The translations under genes and the position numbers were made by a program. A stretch of DNA of 64,000 bases, taken from contig JADBKR010000008.1 in the NCBI GenBank assembly GCA_014896295.1, positions 496,001 through 560,000 of the forward strand, given 5' to 3'. The stretch comes from Limnochordaceae bacterium (GTDB taxonomy: Bacteria; Bacillota; Limnochordia; Limnochordales; Geochordaceae). The notes beneath the pieces were generated by a model that had not been told where the DNA came from, searched no databases, and saw only the letters and a program-made list of their open reading frames with translations. Numbering within the stretch: position 1 is the first letter of the stretch; every line of letters begins with the position of its first letter. Below, piece after piece: positions 33,645 through 45,914 of the stretch.

Positions 33645-34565
33645 GTGGCTACGGCTCAGACTTTCCGGAGGGTATTCCTGGGTGTCGCTGGCAACCCGGC
33701 CGTGACCCGGCTGGCGACCCGCCACGGCCTTTCGCTTGGCGCTCGCCGTTTCGTGGCAGGGGAGACCCTCGAGGAAGGGATCGCGGCGGTTCGGGCCCTG
33801 CGAGCGAGAGGTATGCTCGCCACGCTCGACTTCCTCGGCGAGAAGGTGGCCGGCCTGGCCGACGCCGCCGAGGCAGCGTCCATGTACCGGCGGATGGTGC
33901 AGGCGCTGGCCTCGGCCGGCCTCGAGCCCAACGTCTCGCTCAAGCTGAGCCAGTTCGGCTTGACCATCGATAGAGCCACCTGCGCGCAAAACGCGCGCGG
34001 CGTCGTCGAGGCGGCCGCCCAGGTGGGCGGGTTCGTCCGCATCGACATGGAAGAGTCAGCCCTGGTGGACGCCACCCTCGACGTCTACCGCACGCTGGCC
34101 CGCCAGTTCCCCGGGCGGGTCGGCATCGTGCTGCAGGCTTACCTGTACCGGACCCGGCAAGACCTCGAGAGCCTCCTGCCGGTCGGGCTCAACGTGCGGT
34201 TGTGCAAGGGCGCCTACAGCGAGCCGTCGTCCGTGGCCTTCCCCAAAAAGCGCGACGTCGACGAGAGCTTCCTCCGGCTGCTCCGCACGTCGCTCGCCCA
34301 GGCGCGCTTCACCGCCGTGGCCACCCACGACGAGCGCATCATCCGGGCGGCGCTGGAGTTGAGCCGGGAGCTCCATGCGGAGGGTCGCTACGAGTTCCAG
34401 ATGCTGTACGGGGTCAAGCCGCGTCTCGCCCAGCGGCTCGTGGCCGAAGGACACCGCCTGCGCATCTACGTGCCGTTCGGCACCCACTGGTACCCCTACT
34501 TCATCCGCCGGTTGGCCGAGCGTCCCGCCAACCTGGCCTTCGTCGTGCGCGGCCTGTGGAGCTGA
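33645..34565 (+). CDS. Proline dehydrogenase (PutA/FadM-type PRODH)
   Basis: An FAD-dependent (beta/alpha)8-barrel enzyme of 306 residues that oxidises proline to pyrroline-5-carboxylate. Seen are FVAGETLEEGIAAVRALRA at the start of the barrel, NVSLKLSQFGL, FVRIDMEESAL, IVLQAYLYRT, VRLCKGAYSEP, and the C-terminal EFQMLYGVKPRLAQRL and YVPFGTHWYPYFIRRLAERP. The last motif binds substrate through the RRLxE arginines. It is a monofunctional Gram-positive-type enzyme; no P5C dehydrogenase gene is near. The GTG at 33645 is preferred over a TTG at 33630 because GGGGCGGA precedes it. Confidence 0.93.
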   Translation: MATAQTFRRVFLGVAGNPAVTRLATRHGLSLGARRFVAGETLEEGIAAVRALRARGMLATLDFLGEKVAGLADAAEAASMYRRMVQALASAGLEPNVSLKLSQFGLTIDRATCAQNARGVVEAAAQVGGFVRIDMEESALVDATLDVYRTLARQFPGRVGIVLQAYLYRTRQDLESLLPVGLNVRLCKGAYSEPSSVAFPKKRDVDESFLRLLRTSLAQARFTAVATHDERIIRAALELSRELHAEGRYEFQMLYGVKPRLAQRLVAEGHRLRIYVPFGTHWYPYFIRRLAERPANLAFVVRGLWS

Positions 34566-34596
34566 GCGAAAGCACCGCTGCCCCGCAGCAGGCCGT

Positions 34597-36622
34597 TCAG
34601 CCCCCGGCGGCCTCGCCGGCGGCGGGCTTCTTCACGTGCTTCCGGATCGCCCGCACCAGCTCGCAGGCCTGTTCGTAGCGCCCGAAGGAAGGGACGACGT
34701 AAACGCCGGCCACGTAGGGGCTCGCCTCGACGGCCACCTGCAGGGCGACCTCCATGCCCACCTGCTCGGCCGCGTCGCGCGCCTTTTCCAGGGCCCGGCG
34801 GATCCGCTCCGGGATGGAGATCCCGGGCACCTCGTGGTGTAAGTACTCGGCGTGCTGGTAGCTGCGCAGGGGTAGCACCCCGAGGAGCAGCGGGATCGGA
34901 GCGCCTCCCAGGCGGTCGAGCACCCGCAGGAGCGGGTCGAGCTCGAACAGCGGCTGGGTCATGGCAAAGTGGGCGGCCGCCTCGACTTTCTTCCGGAAGC
35001 GCTCGATCTCGGTGTCGAGGTCCCGGGCCGCGGGGCTGAGCGCCACTCCGATGAGGAACTGGGTGGCCTGGCCGATGCTACGGCCGGCCACGTCCACCCC
35101 CTGGTTGAGCTGGGCGAGCACGCGCACCAGTCCGATGGAGTCGATGTCGTACACGGCGCTTGCGTGTGCGTAGTTGCCGAGCCCCGGGGGATCGCCGGTG
35201 AGAGCCAGGATGTTGCGGATACCCATGGCGTGGGCGCCCAGCAGGTCGGCCTGGATGCCCATCAGGTTACGGTCGCGGGTCGTGAAGTGGAGGATGGTCT
35301 CGATCCCGGTCTCGGCCTGGATGAGGTGGGCCGCAGCCAGAGAAGACATGCGGACCTGCGCCATCGGGCTGTCCCCGACGTTGACCGCATCGGCGCCGCT
35401 CTCCCGGATGGAGCGCGCCCCCCCGAGCAGCTTCTGGACCACCGGGCCCCGGGGCGGGTCGAGCTCCACGCTGATGACGAACCGGCGCCCCAGGGCGAGC
35501 GCAAGCCCGGACCGGCCGCCCTGGGCGCTCTCCTCCCGGCCCGGCACCCCGGCGGCCTCGCGCCCGGCAGGCACGGGCCGCCCCTCGTGCGTCGCTCCGG
35601 GCGGGGAGACGACCACCGTCGTGCTCCCGGCGCCCCCGGCCTCGGGAGCGCGCTGCCGCTCGACGCGGGGCGGCCCCTGCATTCCCTGCAGAGCCTGCGC
35701 CCAGTCCGGGGGAAGCGTGTGCCCGAGAGCGTCGAGCGCCTGGCGCATGGCCCGGATGTGGTCGGGCGTCGTGCCACAGCAGCCGCCGACCACTTGCACG
35801 CCGGGCTCTCCCGCGAAACGCCGGGCGAACTCGCCGAAGTACTCGGGGATGGCCACGTAAACGAAACGCCCGCCCACCACGGTTGGCAGTCCCGCGTTGG
35901 GCATGGCGGAGAAGCGTTGGAACGGCCCCCCGGCCTCGCGCAACGCCCGCACCGCATCCAGCACGGGGGCCGGCCCCGACGCCGCAGTTGACTCCGATCA
36001 CTTCGGGCCGCAGCTCCGAAGCGAGCTCGGCCAGCGCGTCCGCCGCCTCTTTGGGGCTGGCGCCGAGCAGGGTGCGGCCTTCGGATGAAAAGCTCATCTC
36101 GGCGATGACGGGCAGCTTCGAGGCCTCCCGGGCTGCCCTCACGGCCAGCACGAGCTCCCGCGGATCCGACATGGTCTCGATGATGAACAGGTCCACCCCG
36201 CCGGCCAGCAGCGCGTCTACCTGCTCCCGGAAGGCGTCCAACGCCGCCTGCTCGCTCAGCGCCCCGATGGGAGCGAGCGGCCTGCCCGTCGGCCCGACAT
36301 CGCCCGCGATCAGCACCGGCACGCCGGCGGTCTCCCGCGCCGCCCGGGCGATCTTGACGCCGGCCACGTTGATGGCCCGCACCTGGTCTTCCAGCCCGTG
36401 GGCCGCGAGCCGCACCCGGTTGGCGCCGAAGGTGTTGGTCGTCACCAGCTCGGCGCCGGCCAGGATGTAGTCGAGGTGCACCCCTCGGACCAGGTCGGGG
36501 TTGGTGAGGTTGAGCGCGTCGAAAGAGCCCTCCAGGGGCGCGCCCCGAGCATAGAGCAGGGTACCCATGGCGCCGTCGGCGAGCAGGATCCGCCCCGACG
36601 CCAGTGCCTGCTCGAAGCTCAT
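34597..36622 (-). pseudogene. Bifunctional homocysteine S-methyltransferase / methylenetetrahydrofolate reductase, frameshifted
   Basis: The N-terminal half (from ATG 36622) is a homocysteine S-methyltransferase domain like the first module of MetH, with ILLADGAMGTLLYARG and the first zinc Cys in IGVNCGVGAGP. The frame is then lost: the rest of the module, with VQVVGGCCGTTPDHI carrying two more zinc cysteines, and the MTHFR domain (FVISVELDPPRGP, ILALTGDPPGLGNY, AAAHFAMTQPLFE) lie in another frame up to 34597. A run of five G at 35965-35969 is one base too long; deleting one restores a continuous 674-codon gene. Such fusions (YitJ-like) make methylene-THF into methyl-THF and transfer the methyl group to homocysteine. 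The gene is either truly broken, a sequencing error, or read by a frameshift. It overlaps the MetE-like gene by four bases. Confidence 0.85.
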
Positions 36623-37590
36623 GCGAGACCCCGCTCGGCTTTCACCTGGCGTACCGCCTCCACCATGTTGCGGAGCTTCGCCTCGGCCTCCTGCCAGGTC
36701 CGCGTCTTGAGGCCGCAATCGGGGTCGATGTACAGCCGCTCCGGGTCGAGCACGTCCAGGGCCCGCTCGATGTTACGCTTGATCTGCTCGACCGGCTCGA
36801 CGACGTGGCTGTGGACGTCCACGACGCCGAGTGCGATCTCCTTGTGCGGACGCTGGCGCCGGAACAGCTCCAGGATGCCGAAGTCGTTGTTGGCCGCCTC
36901 CAGGTCGAGCTGATCCACCGGCAGGTCCAGCATACGCGGGTAGATCTTCTCGAAGTGACCGTAGCAGATGTGCGTGATGGTGTGGGCCGAAAGGCCCTTC
37001 GTGACGATGCCGAGCGCCTCGATGGCAAGCTCGATCTCCTCGGGCCGGGTCGAGATGGCCGGCTCGTCGATCTGGATGTAACGAGCGCCCGCCCGCTCCA
37101 GATCGACGGCCTCCTCGTGGATCACCTCGGCCATCCTGAGCACCAGCGCCCGCCGGGTCGGGTAGTAGTCGTTGAACGACCAGTCGGCCATCGTGTACGG
37201 CCCGGTGAGCATCCCCTTGACCGGCCGGTCGGTCAGGCTCTGCGCAAAGCGGAAGGCCTCGGTGGCCATGGGCTGGCGGCGTTCGATGGGGCCGACGACG
37301 ATGGGCTTGCGATAGTAGCGGTTGCCGTACGAGCGCACCGGGGGGCTGATGGCGAATCCGCCGAGCTGCTCGGCGAAGTAGGTCGTCATGTCGCCCCGCT
37401 CCATCTCGCCGTGCACCAGGATGTCGACGCCGAGCCGCTCCTGCAGGCGGATGCACTCCTCCGTGGCGCGCCGCTCGAGCCGGCCCAGCTCCTCCCGGGA
37501 GATCTCGCCGCGGGAGAAGCGGTTGCGGGCCTGCACCAGGTAGTCCGGTTTGGGGAAGCTCCCCACGCTGGTCGTCCGTAGCGTTGCCAT
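36619..37590 (-). CDS. MetE-like methionine synthase (core MetE, C-terminal domain type)
   Basis: This 323-residue protein corresponds to the catalytic C-terminal barrel of cobalamin-independent methionine synthase. The N-terminal motif VGSFPKPDYL, the substrate region TGPYTMADWS and IQIDEPAIS are family-like. The zinc ligands are present: HICYGHF (His-x-Cys) and DPDCGLKTR (last Cys). Single-domain core MetE proteins in bacteria and archaea often take methyl groups from methylcobamides or other carriers rather than from methyl-THF glutamates. It is followed by the MetH/MTHFR fusion (four-base overlap) and preceded by a second MetE-like gene. Confidence 0.86.
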   Translation of the reverse strand: MATLRTTSVGSFPKPDYLVQARNRFSRGEISREELGRLERRATEECIRLQERLGVDILVHGEMERGDMTTYFAEQLGGFAISPPVRSYGNRYYRKPIVVGPIERRQPMATEAFRFAQSLTDRPVKGMLTGPYTMADWSFNDYYPTRRALVLRMAEVIHEEAVDLERAGARYIQIDEPAISTRPEEIELAIEALGIVTKGLSAHTITHICYGHFEKIYPRMLDLPVDQLDLEAANNDFGILELFRRQRPHKEIALGVVDVHSHVVEPVEQIKRNIERALDVLDPERLYIDPDCGLKTRTWQEAEAKLRNMVEAVRQVKAERGLA

Positions 37591-37632
37591 GGCTCACTCG
37601 CCACTCTCCCTCTGTCTGCGGCGCGCCCGCGT

Positions 37633-38634
37633 CTACCCGCGGGCCGGCGCGCCGACTGCCAGATCCGCCGCCTCCTTGAGCACCCGCAGCTTCGCCAGAG
37701 CCCGGCTCTGGGGCAAGAACTCCAGCCCGCAGTTGGGGCTGACGGAGATCCGACCCATTCCCATGCGGCGGCCCACCGCCTCGATAGTGCGGGCCAGCTC
37801 GCCGGGCTGCTCGAGCCTCCATTCCCGGCCGTTGACCAGGCCCAAATTGACCGCCCGGGGAAAGCCGTGGGCCGCCAGGTATCCGGCCAGGTCAGGGCCG
37901 CTGGCCAGGTCGAGCCCCACCACGTCCACCATGTCCAGCGCCGCGAGCCGGTCGACCACGCCGGCCCCGTCCCGGAAATAGGTCGCCACCGTGACCGGGA
38001 CGTCGAGGTCTCGGGCCGCTTCCCGCAGCGCCTCCGCCGCCACCTTCCACTCCTCGTCGCTGGCGTCGAACAACAGGGACGGCTCGTCGAACTGGATGGC
38101 CCGCGCCCCAGCTTCGACCAGCGCCCGGGCCTCGAGCTGCAACGCCTGGGCGACGTCCATCGCCAGGTCCTGCCACGACCGGTAGTGCTCGTTGACGCTC
38201 AGCTTCACGAAGGTGAGGGGGCCGGGGAGAGCGACCTTCAGCGCTTTGCGGGCCATGGCCGCCGCCTGGCGCACCTCGTGGGCCAGGGACGACCCGCGCC
38301 ACCAGACCCGGCCTTTGACGACCGGCCTGCGGTAGTAGACGTTGTTGTCGAAGAAGCGGACGAGCCCGCCGATCTCCACGCTACCCAGATCCCGGGCGAA
38401 CGGCGTGACCAGGTCGTCCCAGCGCACCTGCCCGTCCGTCACGAGGTCGACCCCGGCCTCCTCCTGCTCCCGGATCACCCGCTCCACCGTCTGGAGCATG
38501 GCCTCTTCCAGCTCCCGCAGCGAGATCTGGCCCGCCTCGAACTGGTGAATGGCCCGGCGAATGTTGGGTCCCCCGCCCGCCTCGGGCAGTTTGGGATAGC
38601 TGCCAATGACCGTGACCTGCACGGCGCCCCTCAC
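37633..38634 (-). CDS. MetE-like protein lacking part of the zinc site
   Basis: This 333-residue relative of core MetE has VIGSYPKLPEAGG at the N-terminus, IQFDEPSLLFDAS, and VSPNCGLEFLP near the C-terminus, which keeps one Cys of the zinc site. Where its neighbour has His-x-Cys, it has VTVATYFRDG, so two ligands are missing. It may be a methyl-donor partner, a different methyltransferase, or a regulatory paralogue. It ends 43 bases before the next MetE-like gene and starts 12 bases after rfaE2, in one operon. A GTG at 38622 is an alternative start. Confidence 0.8.
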   Translation of the reverse strand: MRGAVQVTVIGSYPKLPEAGGGPNIRRAIHQFEAGQISLRELEEAMLQTVERVIREQEEAGVDLVTDGQVRWDDLVTPFARDLGSVEIGGLVRFFDNNVYYRRPVVKGRVWWRGSSLAHEVRQAAAMARKALKVALPGPLTFVKLSVNEHYRSWQDLAMDVAQALQLEARALVEAGARAIQFDEPSLLFDASDEEWKVAAEALREAARDLDVPVTVATYFRDGAGVVDRLAALDMVDVVGLDLASGPDLAGYLAAHGFPRAVNLGLVNGREWRLEQPGELARTIEAVGRRMGMGRISVSPNCGLEFLPQSRALAKLRVLKEAADLAVGAPARG

Positions 38635-38645
38635 TCCTCTCCTCC

Positions 38646-39146
38646 TCAGGCCGGGGGCTCGCTACCCGCTCGAATGCGCTCGATGAGGGCCGTGGTGGAG
38701 CGCCCTGCTTCCAGCGGCACCAGCACCAGGCGTGCGCCCGCTTCGCGAAGCGCCTCACGCTCCGGCAGCCCCTCCGGCGTGTAATCGGCCCCTTTGACGT
38801 AGACGTCGGGGCGGATGGCCAGGACCAGCGTACTGGCGGTCGGCTCGCCGAAGAGCACGACCCGGTCGACCGCCCGCAGCGCCGCCACCAGCCTGGCCCG
38901 CTCGTCCTGCGGGACGATGGGCCTGCCCGCCCCCTTCAACCGCCGTACGCTTTCGTCGGTGTTGACGCCGACGATGAGCGCGTCGGCCAGCGCCCTTGCC
39001 TTCTCCAGGACGGTGACGTGCCCGGCGTGGAGCAGGTCGAAGCAGCCGTTGGTGAGGGCCACCCTCCCCCCGCCGCGGCGAATCTCCCGGGCAAATGCCA
39101 CCGCCTGCTCCAGCGTGACGACCCGGCCGGCCCCGCCCGGCTCCAC
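38646..39146 (-). CDS. rfaE2: D-glycero-beta-D-manno-heptose 1-phosphate adenylyltransferase
   Basis: This 166-residue cytidylyltransferase-like protein matches the C-terminal half of HldE. Key motifs are VALTNGCFDLLHAGHVTVLEK (nucleotide-binding HxGH region), VGVNTDESVRRLKG, YVKGADYTPE, and the C-terminal GRSTTALIERI. It makes ADP-heptose from heptose 1-phosphate for glycan synthesis. It lies four bases after rfaE1. Confidence 0.92.
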   Translation of the reverse strand: MEPGGAGRVVTLEQAVAFAREIRRGGGRVALTNGCFDLLHAGHVTVLEKARALADALIVGVNTDESVRRLKGAGRPIVPQDERARLVAALRAVDRVVLFGEPTASTLVLAIRPDVYVKGADYTPEGLPEREALREAGARLVLVPLEAGRSTTALIERIRAGSEPPA

Positions 39147-39150
39147 GGCG

Positions 39151-40230
39151 CTACCGGCCCTCCTGGGGCATCGGAAGCGCGTACACCTCCGGCGCCCACG
39201 CCTCCAGCGCTTCCCGCACTTCTCCGGCGCTCACCGTGGCCACGCCGCGCTTGGCGACCACGAGCCCTGCCGCCACGTCGGCCAGCAGCGCCGCCGCCAC
39301 GGCGTGCTCCTCTCCGACCGTGAGGCCCAGCGCCAGCGCGGAGATCACCGTGTCGCCGGCGCCCGAGACATCATACACTTCACGCGGCCGGTACGCCATG
39401 AGCCGCAAAGGCCTGCGGCCGTCGCGAAAGAAAAGGGACATCCCCTCCTCGCCGCGGGTCAGCACCAGCAGGCGCACGTCGAGTTTGGCCAGAAGCTTTT
39501 GACCTGCTTCCACGAAGTCCTGCTCTACCCGCAAGGGGCGCCCCACGGCGTGCTCGGCCTCTCCCGTATTGGGGGTGGCGGCGAACGCGCCCCCGAAATC
39601 GAGCAAACGGTAGCGGGAATCCACGACCACCGGCGCGCCCCTGGCTTTCGCCGCCTCCATCGCCGCGTCCCGGACGGGCGGCGCCAGGGTGCCGGCGCCG
39701 TACTCCGACAGGATCACGGCGTCGGCCCTCGATGCGGCCAGCCTTGCGGCCTCCACCAGCCGGGCCAGCGCCTCTCCGTTCGCGAAGCCCCCCTCCCACC
39801 TGTCCAGGCGCAGCACCTGCTGCCACACCGTCTGCCGGCTGCCCGCCACGAACCGGGTCTTGACCGTCGTCGGCCTGCCGGCGTCCCGGACGAGGGTGTG
39901 GGCGATCCCCTGTTGCTCCATCAGCGCTTCCAGACGGTCCGCCGCCCGATCCTGACCCACGAGCCCCACGAGCTCCACACGGGCGCCGAGGGCCGACGCG
40001 TTGGCCGCCGCGTTGGCGGCTCCGCCCGCCCGCTCCTCGTCCCCTGCCCAGCGCAGGATCAGCACAGGAGCCTCTCGGGCGACCCGCTGGGGCTCGCCGT
40101 AAACGTAGCGGTCGAGGATCGGGTCGCCGATGACCGCGACGAGCCGGCCCTGGGCCCGCTCGAGGAGCGACGCCGCCTGGGAGGCGGCAACGTCGACGCG
40201 CTCACCCGGGGCGGAATGCGTCTCGTTCAA
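39151..40230 (-). CDS. rfaE1: D-glycero-beta-D-manno-heptose-7-phosphate kinase (PfkB family)
   Basis: This 359-residue carbohydrate kinase matches the N-terminal half of HldE. It has VIGDPILDRYVYGEPQRVARE, GGAANAAANASALGARV, and the PfkB signature DVSGAGDTVISALALGL with the catalytic Asp. It phosphorylates heptose 7-phosphate at C1. The two HldE activities are on separate adjacent genes here. It overlaps the upstream membrane-protein gene by 29 bases. Confidence 0.92.
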   Translation of the reverse strand: MNETHSAPGERVDVAASQAASLLERAQGRLVAVIGDPILDRYVYGEPQRVAREAPVLILRWAGDEERAGGAANAAANASALGARVELVGLVGQDRAADRLEALMEQQGIAHTLVRDAGRPTTVKTRFVAGSRQTVWQQVLRLDRWEGGFANGEALARLVEAARLAASRADAVILSEYGAGTLAPPVRDAAMEAAKARGAPVVVDSRYRLLDFGGAFAATPNTGEAEHAVGRPLRVEQDFVEAGQKLLAKLDVRLLVLTRGEEGMSLFFRDGRRPLRLMAYRPREVYDVSGAGDTVISALALGLTVGEEHAVAAALLADVAAGLVVAKRGVATVSAGEVREALEAWAPEVYALPMPQEGR

Positions 40231-41401
40231 GCCTGGTCTCCCTCCGAGCCGACCGGATCCACGGCACGGGTTCGGCGGCGACCCTCGAGCGCCTTCCGCC
40301 GGAGCCGGCGCGCCCGAGCCCGGGCCCGCCCGGCGGTTCGCCCTCGAAAGAGGTCCCCCTCTCGTCCAGCACGCCTCGCAGGGATCGCACGAACATGGCC
40401 CCGCCCACCGCCAGGCTCGCGTAAAACGTGAAGAACCGCCACGCCCCGACGAAGGCGGCGAGACGCCCTCCGGGCAACGCCCCGCGGAACAGGTACGCCA
40501 TCAAGAGCTCGGCCCCGCCGCTCCCGCCGGGCGTGGGGATGAACGCCTGGGCCAGGTTGAAGACGAGCTGCGCGAGGGCCGCGTAGGCCCATTCGATCCG
40601 CGCGCCCAGGCCGATCAAGACGCTCCAGGCGATCGAGAGGTACACGGCCCAGTACACTCCGGTGAGCAGCGTGGCGCTGGCCAGGAGCCAGGGCCGCTTG
40701 ATCACCAGCCGCCGCACGGCGAAGGCGAACCGCAGGCTTTCCCTGGCGCTCCGCGCCAGGGCCCGCTGCACCCATCGCCCGCGCCTCCCCTCCTGCCGCT
40801 TCCCCAGGCGGCGGCGCAGCATCAGGAAGAAGACCGCCAGCCAGCGGGGCCGCCACAGGATCCCGACCACGAACGCGGCCATCAGGGCCAGCGAAAGGAG
40901 CATCAGCAGGCTGAGCGCCGGCGTACTCCCGGCAATCGCTCCGAGCCCTCGCCAGGCGATGACCACCGGCCAGGCGGCGAGCAGCCACAGCACCACCAGT
41001 CCGGAGTCGATCACCGCCACCGCGGTGGCCTGGCCGAAGGTCAACCCTTCCCGGGTGAGCAGGTAGACGAAGACCGGCAGTCCGCCGGTGCTCGTCGGCG
41101 TGACGTGCGACACGAACACGCTCGCCAGGTAGTACCGGAACATCCGCCCGGCCGGCACGCGCACCTCCATCGCGCGGGCCAGCAACTGGGAGCGCCACGT
41201 GCGCAGCTGCCACGCCAGCAGCGTGAGGCCGCCGGCCAGGGCGAGCCACCACGGGTCGACCCAGCCGAGCTGGCGCGTGACATCGTCGCCATCTCTGACC
41301 CATATGAGAAGAGCGGCCACCGAGGCCGCTCCCACCGCCAAAGAGACGGTAACCCCGCGTGCTATGGCCCGCCGGCTGAGGCGGGAAGCCTGGCGCTGCA
41401 C
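40202..41401 (-). CDS. Lysylphosphatidylglycerol synthase-like membrane protein (YbhN/UPF0104)
   Basis: This membrane protein of about 399 residues and seven to eight helices belongs to the LPG_synthase_TM family. Typical features are the ASVFVSHVTPTSTGGLPVFV and AQAFIPTPGGSGGAELLMAYL loops. Members act as flippases or accessory membrane proteins in lipid and glycan export; the catalytic MprF domain is absent. The C-terminal 60 residues are Gly/Arg-rich and probably cytoplasmic. GTG at 41401, with GAGGAG ten bases upstream, is preferred over an in-frame start at 41458. It sits between the heptosyltransferase and rfaE genes. Confidence 0.82.
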   Translation of the reverse strand: MQRQASRLSRRAIARGVTVSLAVGAASVAALLIWVRDGDDVTRQLGWVDPWWLALAGGLTLLAWQLRTWRSQLLARAMEVRVPAGRMFRYYLASVFVSHVTPTSTGGLPVFVYLLTREGLTFGQATAVAVIDSGLVVLWLLAAWPVVIAWRGLGAIAGSTPALSLLMLLSLALMAAFVVGILWRPRWLAVFFLMLRRRLGKRQEGRRGRWVQRALARSARESLRFAFAVRRLVIKRPWLLASATLLTGVYWAVYLSIAWSVLIGLGARIEWAYAALAQLVFNLAQAFIPTPGGSGGAELLMAYLFRGALPGGRLAAFVGAWRFFTFYASLAVGGAMFVRSLRGVLDERGTSFEGEPPGGPGLGRAGSGGRRSRVAAEPVPWIRSARRETRLERDAFRPG

Positions 41402-41405
41402 CGCT

Positions 41406-42677
41406 TCACTGCTCCTCGAACTCGCGTATTTCGTGCGGGGCAGGCATCCGGCGAACACCCAGGAGCCGTCGCCGCCGCCAGGGGTGGGGGCGCTCCCGCC
41501 GGCCCCAGCGCAGCCGCGAAGGTGCCAGCGCCACCATCGCCTCCGGCGGCCAACCGTGGGGCGGAAGGGACGGCGGCCGTCCCAGGGAGCGGAGTGCCCG
41601 CAAGTGCAACCTGTCCAGCTGCCATTCCACGGCCGCCAGCACGTCCCTCGGGGTGATGGCCCGCATGCACTCGGCCGCCCCGTTGATCTGGCACAGGGCA
41701 GGGAAATGCTGGCGGCTCCCGTCGAGCCAGTGGAAGCAGGGACTGCAGGCAGGCGGCCTGCGAACCACGACGTCCAGCGGGCCGAGCGGCCGGAAGTTGT
41801 CCGGGTTGGTCGGTCCGAACAGCGCCACCACCGGCGTCCCCACCGCCACGGCCATGTGCATCGGCGCCGAGTCGTTGCCGATGAAGAGGTCCGACTGCTG
41901 GAGGATGGCCGCCGTCTGCTTGATCCCCGCCTGCCCCGCGACGACCAGGGGCTGGGCCAGGCGAGTCGCCTGGACGATGGCGTGGGCCAGCCCTACGTCG
42001 TCGCGGCCGCCGACCAGGATCACCTGTGCCCCGTACTGGCCCTCCAGGTAGTCGGCCACGTACGCGAAGCCCTCGGCCGGCCACCGCTTGGCCTGGAAAT
42101 GCCGGCCTCCGGGATGGATGGCCACGCGCAGGGGAGGACGGCTGCGGTGCCGGGCCAGCGTCTCGTGAGCCCAGCGGCGGTGCTCGTCGGGAAGCGGCAG
42201 GTCCATGGTCCTCCCGTCGGGCTCAGCCCCCAGCGCCGCCACGACGTCGAGGCAGTAGTCCACCGCGTGGCGCTCGCGCCGGTCGGGCACCCGGACGGTG
42301 TAGGACCATCCCAGCGTCTGGCTGTTGAAGCCTGCCCGCACCGACGCGCCCGTGAAGAGGGTCAACCAGCTGCCCACGTGGGACAGCGCCACGACCGCAT
42401 CGAAGTCCTCCTCGACCAGCTCCGACAGGATCCGGGGTAGCTTGAGCGGCCCCGGGCAGGTGATGAGCCGGTCGAGGTGCGGGTTACCCTCGAGAATCTC
42501 CCGGTTGGAGGACCAGGTCAGGTCGGCGATGTGAGCGCCGGGAAACCGCCGGCGGAGCGCGCGGATGGCCGGCGTCCCGAACAGGGTGTCTCCCAGGGGA
42601 CACAGCTGGATGACCAGGATCTTGCGAATGGCCGGGGCCGGGAGGCGTTGTGCACCTGGCCCTGTCGGATCCGGCAT
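41406..42677 (-). CDS. Glycosyltransferase family 9 (heptosyltransferase-like)
   Basis: This 423-residue GT-B glycosyltransferase resembles the LPS core heptosyltransferases. It has KILVIQLCPLGDTLFGTPAI at the N-terminus, VAIHPGGRHFQAKRWP at the linker to the donor domain, and LFIGNDSAPMHMAVAVGTPV (the GxDSxxMH donor-sugar motif) plus ALFGPTNPDNFRPLG. The genes that follow make ADP-heptose, which supports heptose as donor. GGAGGGG precedes the ATG. It is probably the first gene of a seven-gene operon. A positively charged tail of about 55 residues after the GT fold is unusual. Confidence 0.9.
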   Translation of the reverse strand: MPDPTGPGAQRLPAPAIRKILVIQLCPLGDTLFGTPAIRALRRRFPGAHIADLTWSSNREILEGNPHLDRLITCPGPLKLPRILSELVEEDFDAVVALSHVGSWLTLFTGASVRAGFNSQTLGWSYTVRVPDRRERHAVDYCLDVVAALGAEPDGRTMDLPLPDEHRRWAHETLARHRSRPPLRVAIHPGGRHFQAKRWPAEGFAYVADYLEGQYGAQVILVGGRDDVGLAHAIVQATRLAQPLVVAGQAGIKQTAAILQQSDLFIGNDSAPMHMAVAVGTPVVALFGPTNPDNFRPLGPLDVVVRRPPACSPCFHWLDGSRQHFPALCQINGAAECMRAITPRDVLAAVEWQLDRLHLRALRSLGRPPSLPPHGWPPEAMVALAPSRLRWGRRERPHPWRRRRLLGVRRMPAPHEIREFEEQ

Positions 42678-42798
42678 CCGTTCCCCTCCGGTCCTTGCCT
42701 GCCCGAAAACCCGCCATCAGCTTAGCATGGCCCTCCCTGCGCGACAACCCGGGGATGGGAGCGGATGCCAGCCCCTCCCGGGCCGCAGCGCTTCTCCT

Positions 42799-44565
42799 TC
42801 ACGCGCCCCGCAGGATGAACAGGCGCGTCCCGGCGGGCAGCGGGGCCGTCTCCTCGTAGGCTTCCAGGTCTGGATTGGCTGCCAGGATCTGCTGGGTCGC
42901 CGTGCGGTACCGGCGGGACAGCTTCCAGAGGGTATCACCCGCCTGGGTGACCACGAGGTAGATGAAGGGATCGGGCTCATTGCCAGACGGCCGCACCAAC
43001 ACCGCCTCGGCCACGACGTCCTGCGTCACCGGCGTCTCCGCCTCGGCCTGGCACGTGCCGGAGACGGTGAACTCCAGGGTTTGCCGGCTGATCAGGTCGA
43101 CCTCGGCCGTCATGGAGCCCGCCTGGGCTCGCACCTCCGCCTCCGGGCGCAGGTCGGGGATGGCGAGGACCTGTTCGATGGAAAGCGCCCCGGGCCAGGA
43201 GGCGAAGTGGAGGCCCTGGCTCTGGGGTTCGGCTTTGTAGGGCAGATAATAGATCCAGGGGGTGGCCGTCGCCGAGACGTGGACGCGGCCCGGTTCCGGC
43301 CTCGCCGTGATCGTGTCGACACCGACCCCGCTCCACACGATCCGCTCGATGGGTGGCAATCCCCCGGGCAGCTCCACGGTGGTGGACGCCGTGAAAGTGC
43401 GCCGCCCCTCTCCCGCCGGAGCTTCCACGCGCACCGCCACGGTGCGCTGCTCCACCGAGGCTGCGTCGGCCCGGATCGCCGCCACGACCGGTACGAGCTG
43501 GCTGGCCGTGGCCGTGGCGCGTACCTCCACCTGAGCGCTGACGGAGACCACGCCCTCGGAGCCCAGGATCCGGACCGAGGCATCCGTCACGAAGGCCTGG
43601 GCCTTGACCTGGCTGCCCTGACCGATGCCGTCGATGGCCAGGGTCGACTCGAACCCTTCCTGGCCCGGCCAGCTGGCCAGGTCGACGTGCCAGGCGCGGG
43701 CGGGCGCCTGGCGCTCGGCCGGCCCGGAACCGTCGGCGGCTTGCTCCTGGGCGGGTTCGGCCGGCGCACCGGCGTCGAGGGCGCTGCCCTGGGCGGCCGG
43801 CTGGTGCTGGTAGGCGTAGAGCAGTTCGTACGAGAGCTGCCCCTTCACCACCGCCTCGCCGGGCCGCACCTCGACGCCGGTGATCAGGGGCTGGACCCGG
43901 AGGTCCAGGACGCGCAAGGGCCTATCGCCGCCGCCCGGCACGTCCAGGGGCCGGGCGTCCTCGACGTTGATCCGGGCCGTAGCCCATCCCTGCACCACCT
44001 TCAGCCGCAGGTTGGCCGTCGACACGTCGACCCGATCGGGAGGGCTCGCCAGGACCTGGGTCACGACCCGGTTCTGTTCCGAGGCGACGCCGGTAAAGTG
44101 GACGCCCAGGACCACGTCCACGTCCGCGCTGCGACCGTCGGGGCGAAAACGGCCCTCGACGTCGCGCACCGTCACGTCGACCTGCCATGCCGCAGCTTCA
44201 CCCTCGGGCGGGATCTCGAGCCAGGCCGAGTACGAGAGCTCCCCGTCCATCCTACCGCCGTACACGGCGCCCACCGGGTCGGGCGCCTCGGACCCGGCGG
44301 CCACGTACACCACCCAGACGCGCACCCTTCCCTGCGCCTCGACGCGCCCGGAGGCGGGGTCGGGGGTCAACCGTTCCACGCTGGCCAGCGCCCTCCACCG
44401 GACGACCGAGGCGGCGTCCGGCAGTTCGCTGGGCAGGCGCAGGGTCCCCGACGCCGTGGCGTCCACGCTGCGGTCCTCGACGCGCCGGGTGAGCCGGAGC
44501 TCGCTCTCTTTGATGCGCACCGCCACGCTCTCGACCTCCCCACGTAAGCAGGCGTCTGCCTCCAT
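42799..44565 (-). CDS. SipL-like spore coat/cortex morphogenesis protein (DUF3794 repeats + LysM)
   Basis: This 588-residue protein has repeated SPOCS/DUF3794 domains, seen as beta-strand blocks with conserved ARINVEDARPLDVPGGG and FTVSGTC segments. A C-terminal LysM domain (VVTQAGDTLWKLSRRYRTATQQILAANPDL) follows. In clostridia SipL has this layout and tethers SpoIVA to the coat during sporulation. A Glu/Gln-rich insert lies near residues 250-275. The ATG at 44565 lacks a good ribosome binding site; a GTG about 14 codons downstream has GGGGAGGT eight bases before it and may be the true start. The frame stays open upstream to 45405, but that part lies opposite another gene. Confidence 0.83.
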   Translation of the reverse strand: MEADACLRGEVESVAVRIKESELRLTRRVEDRSVDATASGTLRLPSELPDAASVVRWRALASVERLTPDPASGRVEAQGRVRVWVVYVAAGSEAPDPVGAVYGGRMDGELSYSAWLEIPPEGEAAAWQVDVTVRDVEGRFRPDGRSADVDVVLGVHFTGVASEQNRVVTQVLASPPDRVDVSTANLRLKVVQGWATARINVEDARPLDVPGGGDRPLRVLDLRVQPLITGVEVRPGEAVVKGQLSYELLYAYQHQPAAQGSALDAGAPAEPAQEQAADGSGPAERQAPARAWHVDLASWPGQEGFESTLAIDGIGQGSQVKAQAFVTDASVRILGSEGVVSVSAQVEVRATATASQLVPVVAAIRADAASVEQRTVAVRVEAPAGEGRRTFTASTTVELPGGLPPIERIVWSGVGVDTITARPEPGRVHVSATATPWIYYLPYKAEPQSQGLHFASWPGALSIEQVLAIPDLRPEAEVRAQAGSMTAEVDLISRQTLEFTVSGTCQAEAETPVTQDVVAEAVLVRPSGNEPDPFIYLVVTQAGDTLWKLSRRYRTATQQILAANPDLEAYEETAPLPAGTRLFILRGA

Positions 44566-44567
44566 GC

Positions 44568-45914
44568 TTATGAGGGGGAGGGCCCGAGCTTGACCGCGGC
44601 CAGCGCGTTTTGTATGGCCGCGAGGGAGGCGGGTTCCGCCCGGTCCACGCCGGCGAGGGCCACGCCCCCCAGCCCCGCCCAGCGCATCCACCACATCCAA
44701 CGGGCCAGCTGCGCGGCGCCGTAGCGCACCAGGCGCGCCTGCCCGGCGGAAGATGCGTCCGGCTCCGACGGGTGCCGCCGGGTCAGCCGCCGTACCCGCA
44801 GCTGCCAGTTGAGCATGACTGCCTCGGTGCGGGTGAGGCGGCGCCGCTGGTCGCCTTCGATCAGCCACGTGGCCAGGTCGATCCCCAGCAGCACCGCCCA
44901 CGGGGGACGGAAAGGCCGCAAGCCTTGAACGAACGCCCGCACGGATTCGAAGGCCTGCTCCGGGGGGGCGCCGGGCAGCGGCGCCCACAGCACGATGCGT
45001 TCCCACACGCTGCCCAGCCGCCCCAGCTCCGACCCCTCCCAGCGCACCAGCGCTCGGCTCCCGCCGGTCACGGGCCTGCTGAGCCACGGCCGCACCCCGG
45101 CCAGGCGCAAGCCTTTCCCGACGCGGACCGCCGCTCCGGTCGGCAATGGGCGACTGCCGGGCCCGAGCGGCAGGTGCTCCGATTGCGGCGGGCCGGTGAG
45201 GATCACGCGCGGGGGACGCTCTGCGCGGGCAAGCCAGCGGGCCAGGGTGCCCGGCCGGGGCGGCAGGAGCGAGCGTCCCGGCTCGAGGATCGCGATGGCG
45301 ATCGGGCATCCGGGTGAAGAGGACAGGCGCTCGACCGGCGCGGCCCCGTCTCTCGCCGGCCGAATACGCCCCAAGCGGTCGACCTCCCACGTCGTCCACG
45401 GGCACGCCCGCCCGCTCCAGGGGGATGAGCCCTCCTCACCCGGCTGCCGCCCCGGGAGTCCCTCGTCCCACACGATGGCCAGCCGGCGGCGTACCTGGAT
45501 GGGGCGCCCTTTGGGAAGCGGCGCGCCGTGGAAGAGGCCGTTGTCGACCTCCAGCGCGCCGGGCGCCAGCTCCAGCAGCCGGGCGGCCTCCCGGAGGGTG
45601 ACGTGCGACCCGTTGCCGCCCACCGGGTGGGTCTCCACGGCCACCAGGGGATCGGCCAGCAACCCAAGCACCTGGCGCCCTGCGAGCCCGTCCACCGCCA
45701 GCCGGAAGGAGCGCTGGAAGGAGCGGACCGCTGCTTCCGTCAGTTCTCCGTACCACCCGTCCATGGGACCGTCGTAGAAGCCCAGGTCCGCGAGGCGGCG
45801 CTGGAGGTACGCCACCCAGGGCCCGTGGCTCCCGGCCCTCAACAGGGGCGGCCGGCCCGAGGGTGGCTGCACGGAGCCGGGTGCCGCCGGTCGGCGCTCA
45901 CCGCCATGGGCCAT
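44568..45914 (-). CDS. Peptidoglycan-binding protein with possible GH18-like C-terminus
   Basis: The protein has a PG_binding_1 domain (GPWVAYLQRRLADLGFYDGP, then DGWYGELTEAAVRSFQRSF) near residues 28-85. The central part is not recognised; it has GLFHGAPLPKGRPI and other LysM-like fragments. The C-terminus (WWMRWAGLGGVALAGVDRAEP) resembles the end of GH18 spore-type glycosylases such as YaaH, but catalytic acids are not apparent. It lies two bases before the SipL-like gene and after the amidase, so a sporulation or cell-wall role is likely. The ATG at 45914 is a choice among several in-frame starts up to 46013. Confidence 0.65.
   Translation of the reverse strand: MAHGGERRPAAPGSVQPPSGRPPLLRAGSHGPWVAYLQRRLADLGFYDGPMDGWYGELTEAAVRSFQRSFRLAVDGLAGRQVLGLLADPLVAVETHPVGGNGSHVTLREAARLLELAPGALEVDNGLFHGAPLPKGRPIQVRRRLAIVWDEGLPGRQPGEEGSSPWSGRACPWTTWEVDRLGRIRPARDGAAPVERLSSSPGCPIAIAILEPGRSLLPPRPGTLARWLARAERPPRVILTGPPQSEHLPLGPGSRPLPTGAAVRVGKGLRLAGVRPWLSRPVTGGSRALVRWEGSELGRLGSVWERIVLWAPLPGAPPEQAFESVRAFVQGLRPFRPPWAVLLGIDLATWLIEGDQRRRLTRTEAVMLNWQLRVRRLTRRHPSEPDASSAGQARLVRYGAAQLARWMWWMRWAGLGGVALAGVDRAEPASLAAIQNALAAVKLGPSPS

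Follow-up and report, generated by a model that had tools for sequence, protein, structure and literature searches.

Introduction

Split MetE is a form of methionine synthase in which two mostly adjacent genes encode the N- and C-terminal barrels of the enzyme. It was named by Price, Deutschbauer and Arkin in 2021 (PMC7857596), whose paper, in the sections considered here, reports it mostly from archaea and names a single bacterium, Sulfobacillus sp. hq2. According to these sections, 106 of 107 genomes with split MetE have no other known methionine synthase, and a complex of the two proteins was reported for the archaeal pair PF1268/PF1269 of P. furiosus. Split MetE has so far been proposed from genome comparison together with this one reported archaeal complex, its use of a methyl-pterin being a prediction, and its authors state that difficulty in recognizing the N part leaves their list incomplete. 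Here, we describe two adjacent genes of a Limnochordaceae bacterium that lie in a stretch of 64,000 nucleotides (assembly GCA_014896295.1, contig JADBKR010000008.1, positions 496,001 to 560,000), called the window below. These two open reading frames (ORFs) very probably encode a split, two-subunit MetE in which the first protein (P0001) is the zinc-less N barrel and the second (P0002) is the barrel that binds zinc and homocysteine; the resulting double barrel would hold 5-methyl-tetrahydrofolate (5-methyl-THF) polyglutamate and transfer its methyl group directly to homocysteine without cobalamin.

Fused MetE (E. coli b3829; T. maritima 1XPG) consists of one chain with a linker and shares with the window pair the two barrels, the zinc ligands, the homocysteine residues and Trp561. 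The core methionine synthases MesA-MesD, like P0002, consist of one zinc barrel that is homologous to the C-terminal half of MetE, but they are described without an N-terminal barrel in the parts of PMC7857596 and PMC7005905 considered here, whereas the C gene of the window is preceded by an N-barrel gene. The "split methionine synthase" of PMC12478193 and PMC12366255 is, in the passages concerned, a MetH-like split enzyme and not MetE, and the word "methionine" is absent from the main text of a paper on Limnochordia (PMC11456536).

Results

Two adjacent genes correspond to the two barrels of MetE

The N gene (37633..38634, minus strand) encodes P0001, which has 333 aa and a GTG start, and the C gene (36619..37590, minus strand) follows it after a gap of 42 nt and encodes the 323 aa of P0002. 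A third gene starts at 36622 on the same strand, where an ATGA overlaps the stop of P0002 by four bases, confirming the three tandem ORFs and the overlap described in an original prediction made from the sequence of this locus. P0001 and P0002 share 31% identity over 323 positions, and E. coli MetE (residues 1-751) spans both genes in a single alignment stretch. Since a genome of the same species (G225) shows an identical ORF layout (333 + 323 aa), the separation of the N and C parts is not a sequencing artefact. In the genome of the window, which is 97% complete, P0001 and P0002 are the only Meth_synt_2 matches and no fused MetE was found, a point of resemblance to the split MetE of Price 2021. 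No MetH was found over the cut-off in this genome, where the best match to a corrinoid module reached 19 bits; beside these two negatives, an S-methyltransferase domain is found next to the pair.

With Pfam, P0001 matched Meth_synt_2 (125 bits) and Meth_synt_1 (88 bits), and P0002 matched Meth_synt_2 (293 bits) as well as Meth_synt_1. P0002 also passes the NCBIfam equivalog PRK04326 (423 bits, cut-off 406), like the C part of the described split MetE; this model was used as a stand-in for a PF1269-type test, in place of the 200-bit phmmer rule of Price 2021. The fused-MetE model TIGR01371 (cut-off 929.95) was not reached by P0002 (310 bits) or P0001 (130 bits). P0002 stayed below the cut-offs of three further NCBIfam models, PRK00957 (190/258), PRK09121 (161/392) and PRK01207 (209/399), and any link of these models to MesA-D is our assumption. 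AlphaFold2 gave models with a predicted local distance difference test score (pLDDT) of 89.4 for P0001 and 92.0 for P0002, which matched MetE-type barrels with Z values of 31-37 and 31-40, respectively, the next matches being uroporphyrinogen decarboxylase and a Methanosarcina methyltransferase (Z about 24).

Residue columns were read on a 154-row alignment of MetE-like sequences, in E. coli MetE numbering. Near-identical rows were kept in the residue counts and left out of the trees of 49 and 71 rows; L175 and L185, repeat genomes of L024 and L022, were counted once, and neither the more diverged pairs (L117-L128) nor the single-gene relatives (L129-L133) enter the counts. Two of the archaeal C rows, 13 in all, lack an N gene in the examined flank (L104, L105). 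P0002 carries all four MetE zinc ligands (His207, Cys209, Glu231, Cys292), so that the His-x-Cys and last Cys that had been predicted for its site are indeed there but belong to a complete set. At the same four columns, P0001 has Ala217, Tyr219, Asp242 and Cys302, the last one being the Cys that the original prediction had found retained. The H-C-E-C ligands are thus confined to the C part of the pair. Tyr and Asp occupy the C643 and E665 columns in all fused N halves (31/31), all bacterial split N proteins (22/22) and all archaeal ones (12/12), and they correspond to Tyr232 and Asp253 of T. maritima MetE, which are, in the considered part of Pejchal and Ludwig 2004 (PMC539065), among the substitutions that disabled zinc and homocysteine binding by the N barrel after gene duplication. 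Cys is present at the last Cys column in 27/31 fused N and 16/22 bacterial split N, and most archaeal split N have a different residue there. Judged from these residues, the "zinc-poor" site of P0001 is the normal signature of a MetE N barrel.

The same division appears in separate alignments, where Arg93, Tyr219 and Asp242 (P0001 numbering) are invariant in the 20 N proteins of alignment A1 and His207, Cys209, Glu231, Cys292, Trp137 and Asp175 (P0002 numbering) are invariant in the 13 C proteins of alignment A2. S433, E484, W561, D599, H641, C643, E665, H694 and C726 are all kept in 16/16 bacterial split C proteins, S433, E484 and D599 being homocysteine residues, and E665 is kept in 8/13 archaeal split C. 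The Arg that binds the glutamate tail (E. coli R515) is found in 31/31 fused C and 16/16 bacterial split C but in 0/13 archaeal split C, which sets the window pair, a member of the bacterial branch, apart from archaeal split MetE and fits the use of polyglutamyl folate in bacteria and of other pterins in archaea. Finally, a single branch of the 71-row IQ-TREE tree (support 100/100) parts N from C proteins, with P0001 on the N side and P0002 on the C side. The prediction of two core MetE homologues is therefore wrong for P0001, and the suggestion of a split methyl-transfer machine was right in kind, since each protein matches one of the barrels of MetE.

Split MetE occurs in several bacterial groups

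A search of 398 genomes of the same phylum with P0001, scoring at most five candidates per genome, detected the pair in five of them (G000, G225, G001, G357 and G194), G357 and G194 belonging to one family other than that of the window, tentatively Sulfobacillus. Using an N-protein profile, split N was found in 14/60 genomes of the phylum of a Zixibacteria metagenome-assembled genome, one of which (G591) had no C match, and in 7/100 genomes from the phylum to which a record titled Actinobacteria bacterium belongs. A scan of genome contigs yielded 20 loci, including Omnitrophota, two archaea and one fused MetE. Duplicates between genome collections are otherwise unchecked in these counts. Bacterial split MetE is therefore found in several bacterial groups.

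No fused MetE was seen in any of the 26 split-N genomes (5 + 14 + 7); two of them (G624, G638) have an additional single-barrel match. MetH was not detected over the cut-off in any of 12 genomes searched (11 bacteria or archaea with the pair or an N gene, and G432, which has separate pterin- and B12-module matches), nor in G000 or G001, with G225, G357 and G194 lying outside this search. Four small Omnitrophota genomes with split MetE (loci L026, L030, L031 and L037; genomes G426, G429, G430 and G435) gave zero matches to the MetH model.

A second, more diverged two-gene MetE-like pair was also encountered in archaea (L117-L128), with similar matches among L161-L167. It consists of an N-like protein of about 316-340 aa and a zinc-barrel protein of about 330-375 aa; the latter has Glu at the column of the tail-binding Arg, and the one pair that was scanned scores under the PRK04326 cut-off.

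Gene order and regulation

Among 38 bacterial genomes with an N locus (that of the window included), the C gene lies within the examined stretch in 30, and the order is N then C on the same strand in 30/30 of these pair loci, although several kb separate N from C in Omnitrophota L030, L031 and L037. The next gene after the pair is a methyltransferase-MTHFR gene in 14/30 loci, corresponding to 5/5 loci of the window's phylum and nine in the Zixibacteria phylum. One more locus (L019) has such a gene 3.6 kb downstream of the pair, and none follows the pair in the Actinobacteria-titled phylum (0/7) or in Omnitrophota (0/5). Upstream of the pair at L034, an archaeal locus, lies an MTHFR-like gene (27 bits, cut-off 24).

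An Rfam scan of all 30 pair loci detected an S-adenosylmethionine (SAM) riboswitch (RF00162, 60-91 bits, gathering threshold 44.4) just upstream of the N gene in seven. Five of these belong to the seven genomes of the Actinobacteria-titled phylum, the other two being G357 and G194, and the distance from the end of the aptamer to the matched N region is 19-94 bases. Linkage to the methyltransferase-MTHFR fusion and SAM riboswitches in some relatives distinguish the window pair from the split MetE of Price 2021, as presented in the sections considered; both features support methionine synthesis from methylfolate. In the window itself, no promoter-like sites were found in 34300-40400, no Rfam matches in 34000-44000 (E up to 1) and no terminator-like matches around the operon, and the pair there is without an obvious leader of its own.

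In four genomes belonging to one phylum (L022/L185, L186, L187 and L190), split MetE is directly followed by thiamine pyrophosphate (TPP) riboswitches, and at L022 the next gene is a cytosine/purine/thiamine permease gene.

Departures from fused MetE and the possibility of a stand-alone synthase

Several observations weigh against a double-barrel MetE. The column of the pterin-anchoring Glu605 (T. maritima Glu583) holds Glu in 31/31 fused C but Thr in 16/16 bacterial split C, and the segment from D599 to 640 measures 42-43 residues in fused MetE and 32 in bacterial split C, about 10 fewer. The N barrel differs too: the K117 column is Arg in 34/34 split N (22/22 bacterial), and Tyr occupies the H124 column in 32/34 split N (22/22 bacterial), where T. 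maritima has His111, a candidate proton donor. Both models have a single-barrel synthase, 3rpd, as their top structure match, and the model of P0001 ties between N and C barrels (Z 35.4 and 34.7, respectively). P0001 also fails the N-part screening rule of Price 2021, by which, in the section concerned, Meth_synt_1 must outscore Meth_synt_2 when both match (88 vs 125 bits here). No C gene was found in the examined stretch of 8/38 bacterial N-gene genomes, two of which have a C-like gene on another contig. Last, no SAM riboswitch was detected with Rfam in the window or, altogether, in 23/30 pair loci.

Because the Z values of P0001 are tied, a decision between N and C by structure alone was rejected, and residues and tree were used for the assignment. 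The screening rule is a search filter and not a defining feature of split MetE. As for Thr at the Glu605 column and the shorter segment, they imply that pterin recognition must differ from that of fused MetE. Glu185 (P0002 numbering), invariant in 13/13 split C proteins, is a candidate for replacing Glu605.

These departures give some room to another interpretation, in which P0002 would be a stand-alone core synthase of the MesA-D type that takes its methyl group from a corrinoid donor and P0001 a paralogue of other function. The complete zinc and homocysteine residues of P0002, the lack of the pterin Glu in split C and the 3rpd match are all compatible with it, but P0001 bears the MetE N-barrel signature and precedes the C gene at all 30 loci with both, an MTHFR-containing gene follows in almost half of these loci, and the 19-bit match is the best that the window's genome offers for a MetH-type corrinoid module. 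We thus consider this interpretation improbable. The folate-independent activity evoked in the original prediction is likewise disfavored by the paired N barrel, the conserved tail-binding Arg and the linked MTHFR, even if the pterin-anchoring Glu of fused MetE is missing.

Evolution of the split form

In the 49-row tree, fused C (100/100), bacterial split C (89/85) and archaeal split C (100/99) form separate groups, and when N proteins were used as an outgroup (71 rows), fused C grouped with bacterial split C (100/99). Support for bacterial split C as one clade is moderate (89/85 with 49 rows, 64/36 with 71 rows). On the N side of the 71-row tree, fused N is placed among split N with weak inner support, branches are long and bacterial split N is not one clade.

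Fused MetE is present in relatives of the same order, including G002 of the same family, as would be expected if the pair were a fused MetE of this lineage that a frameshift or stop had recently split. An approximately unbiased (AU) test nevertheless rejected the grouping of the C proteins of the window and G001 with the C halves of fused MetE from G002, G004 and G007 (p-AU 3.8e-7), which rules out a recent local fission; moreover, the pair is common to distant bacterial groups and has neither the linker nor the longer loop seen in fused MetE, making such an origin very unlikely. A second AU test, with fused C as the closest relative of split C from the window's own phylum, gave a p-AU of 0.234, by which this kinship is neither shown nor rejected.

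Since bacterial split C groups with fused C and a recent fission is ruled out, the bacterial pair may preserve a pre-fusion form. An ancestral split state followed by one fusion would be the simplest reading of the trees, with the N side poorly resolved. We tentatively propose, as a scenario that is possible rather than probable, that bacterial split MetE survives from before the fusion: N and C would have arisen first by duplication, the genes would have stayed in the order N-C, a single fusion would have started from a bacterial pair, and the Glu605 loop and the linker would have been gained afterwards, the split enzyme gripping the pterin differently, perhaps via Glu185 of its C part.

The third gene and the neighboring genes

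The third gene (34597..36622, minus strand) is, as had been predicted, a homocysteine S-methyltransferase fused to MTHFR, with S-methyl_trans and MTHFR matches (Pfam) that fall in two frames here. Its domain order and family are those of the PRK08645 fusion, which we take to be YitJ of B. subtilis, but it differs in being broken by one base and in standing in one gene row with split MetE. Using blastn against G225, the extra base was located near 35980 (35975..35985, minus strand), where it is the sole gap in 7000 aligned columns (97.3% identity); it may be either a fault of the assembly or a feature of the strain. Against a full-length PRK08645 cut-off of 453, the pieces in the two frames reach 435 and 213.5 separately, and the fusion is open in G225 (675 codons) and in G001 of the same family (661 aa), open relatives having been scanned with Pfam only. 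That the pair serves as a backup for the broken fusion, as the original prediction had proposed in view of the frameshift in this assembly, was rejected as most unlikely, because the extra base is absent from G225 of the same species and relatives with an open fusion (G225, G001, G357 and G194) retain the pair beside it.

The MTHFR half of the fusion is the sole MTHFR match in the genome. The S-methyltransferase half keeps three Cys (NC and GGCC motifs) in G225 (L097), G001 (L098), G357 (L099) and L032, to which we would ascribe a role in zinc binding, and may therefore provide a second route to methionine; MetH was not found over the cut-off in G000, G001 or the genome of L032.

On the other side of the pair, a cytidylyltransferase-like gene (38646..39146, minus strand; Pfam CTP_transf_like) ends the upstream neighborhood 11 nt before the N gene. 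It belongs to a cluster at 38646-42677 with PfkB kinase, LPG_synthase_TM and heptosyltransferase-family genes, which suggests synthesis of ADP-heptose or of a lipopolysaccharide-like product. The same genome encodes a SipL/LysM protein at 42799-45405 of the window.

Discussion

Homology to MetE, the N/C assignment, the conserved zinc and homocysteine residues, the gene order, the linkage to MTHFR and the SAM riboswitches of some relatives are the observations from which we conclude on a split MetE; formation of a complex, use of methylfolate and catalysis by the pair are predicted from them. In the mechanism that we propose, the N and C subunits would meet face to face, in the manner of fused MetE, with the cleft between them holding 5-methyl-THF polyglutamate. 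The MTHFR half of the next gene would make the 5-methyl-THF, and the zinc-bound homocysteine thiolate would take up the methyl group directly, with no involvement of cobalamin.

The kind of enzyme is itself known; it is found here in several bacterial groups. With a bacterial version that sits beside MTHFR and, in relatives, behind SAM riboswitches, the predicted use of methyl-THF becomes testable with ordinary folates. Bacterial split MetE also offers a natural form in which to ask how and when the two-barrel MetE was fused.

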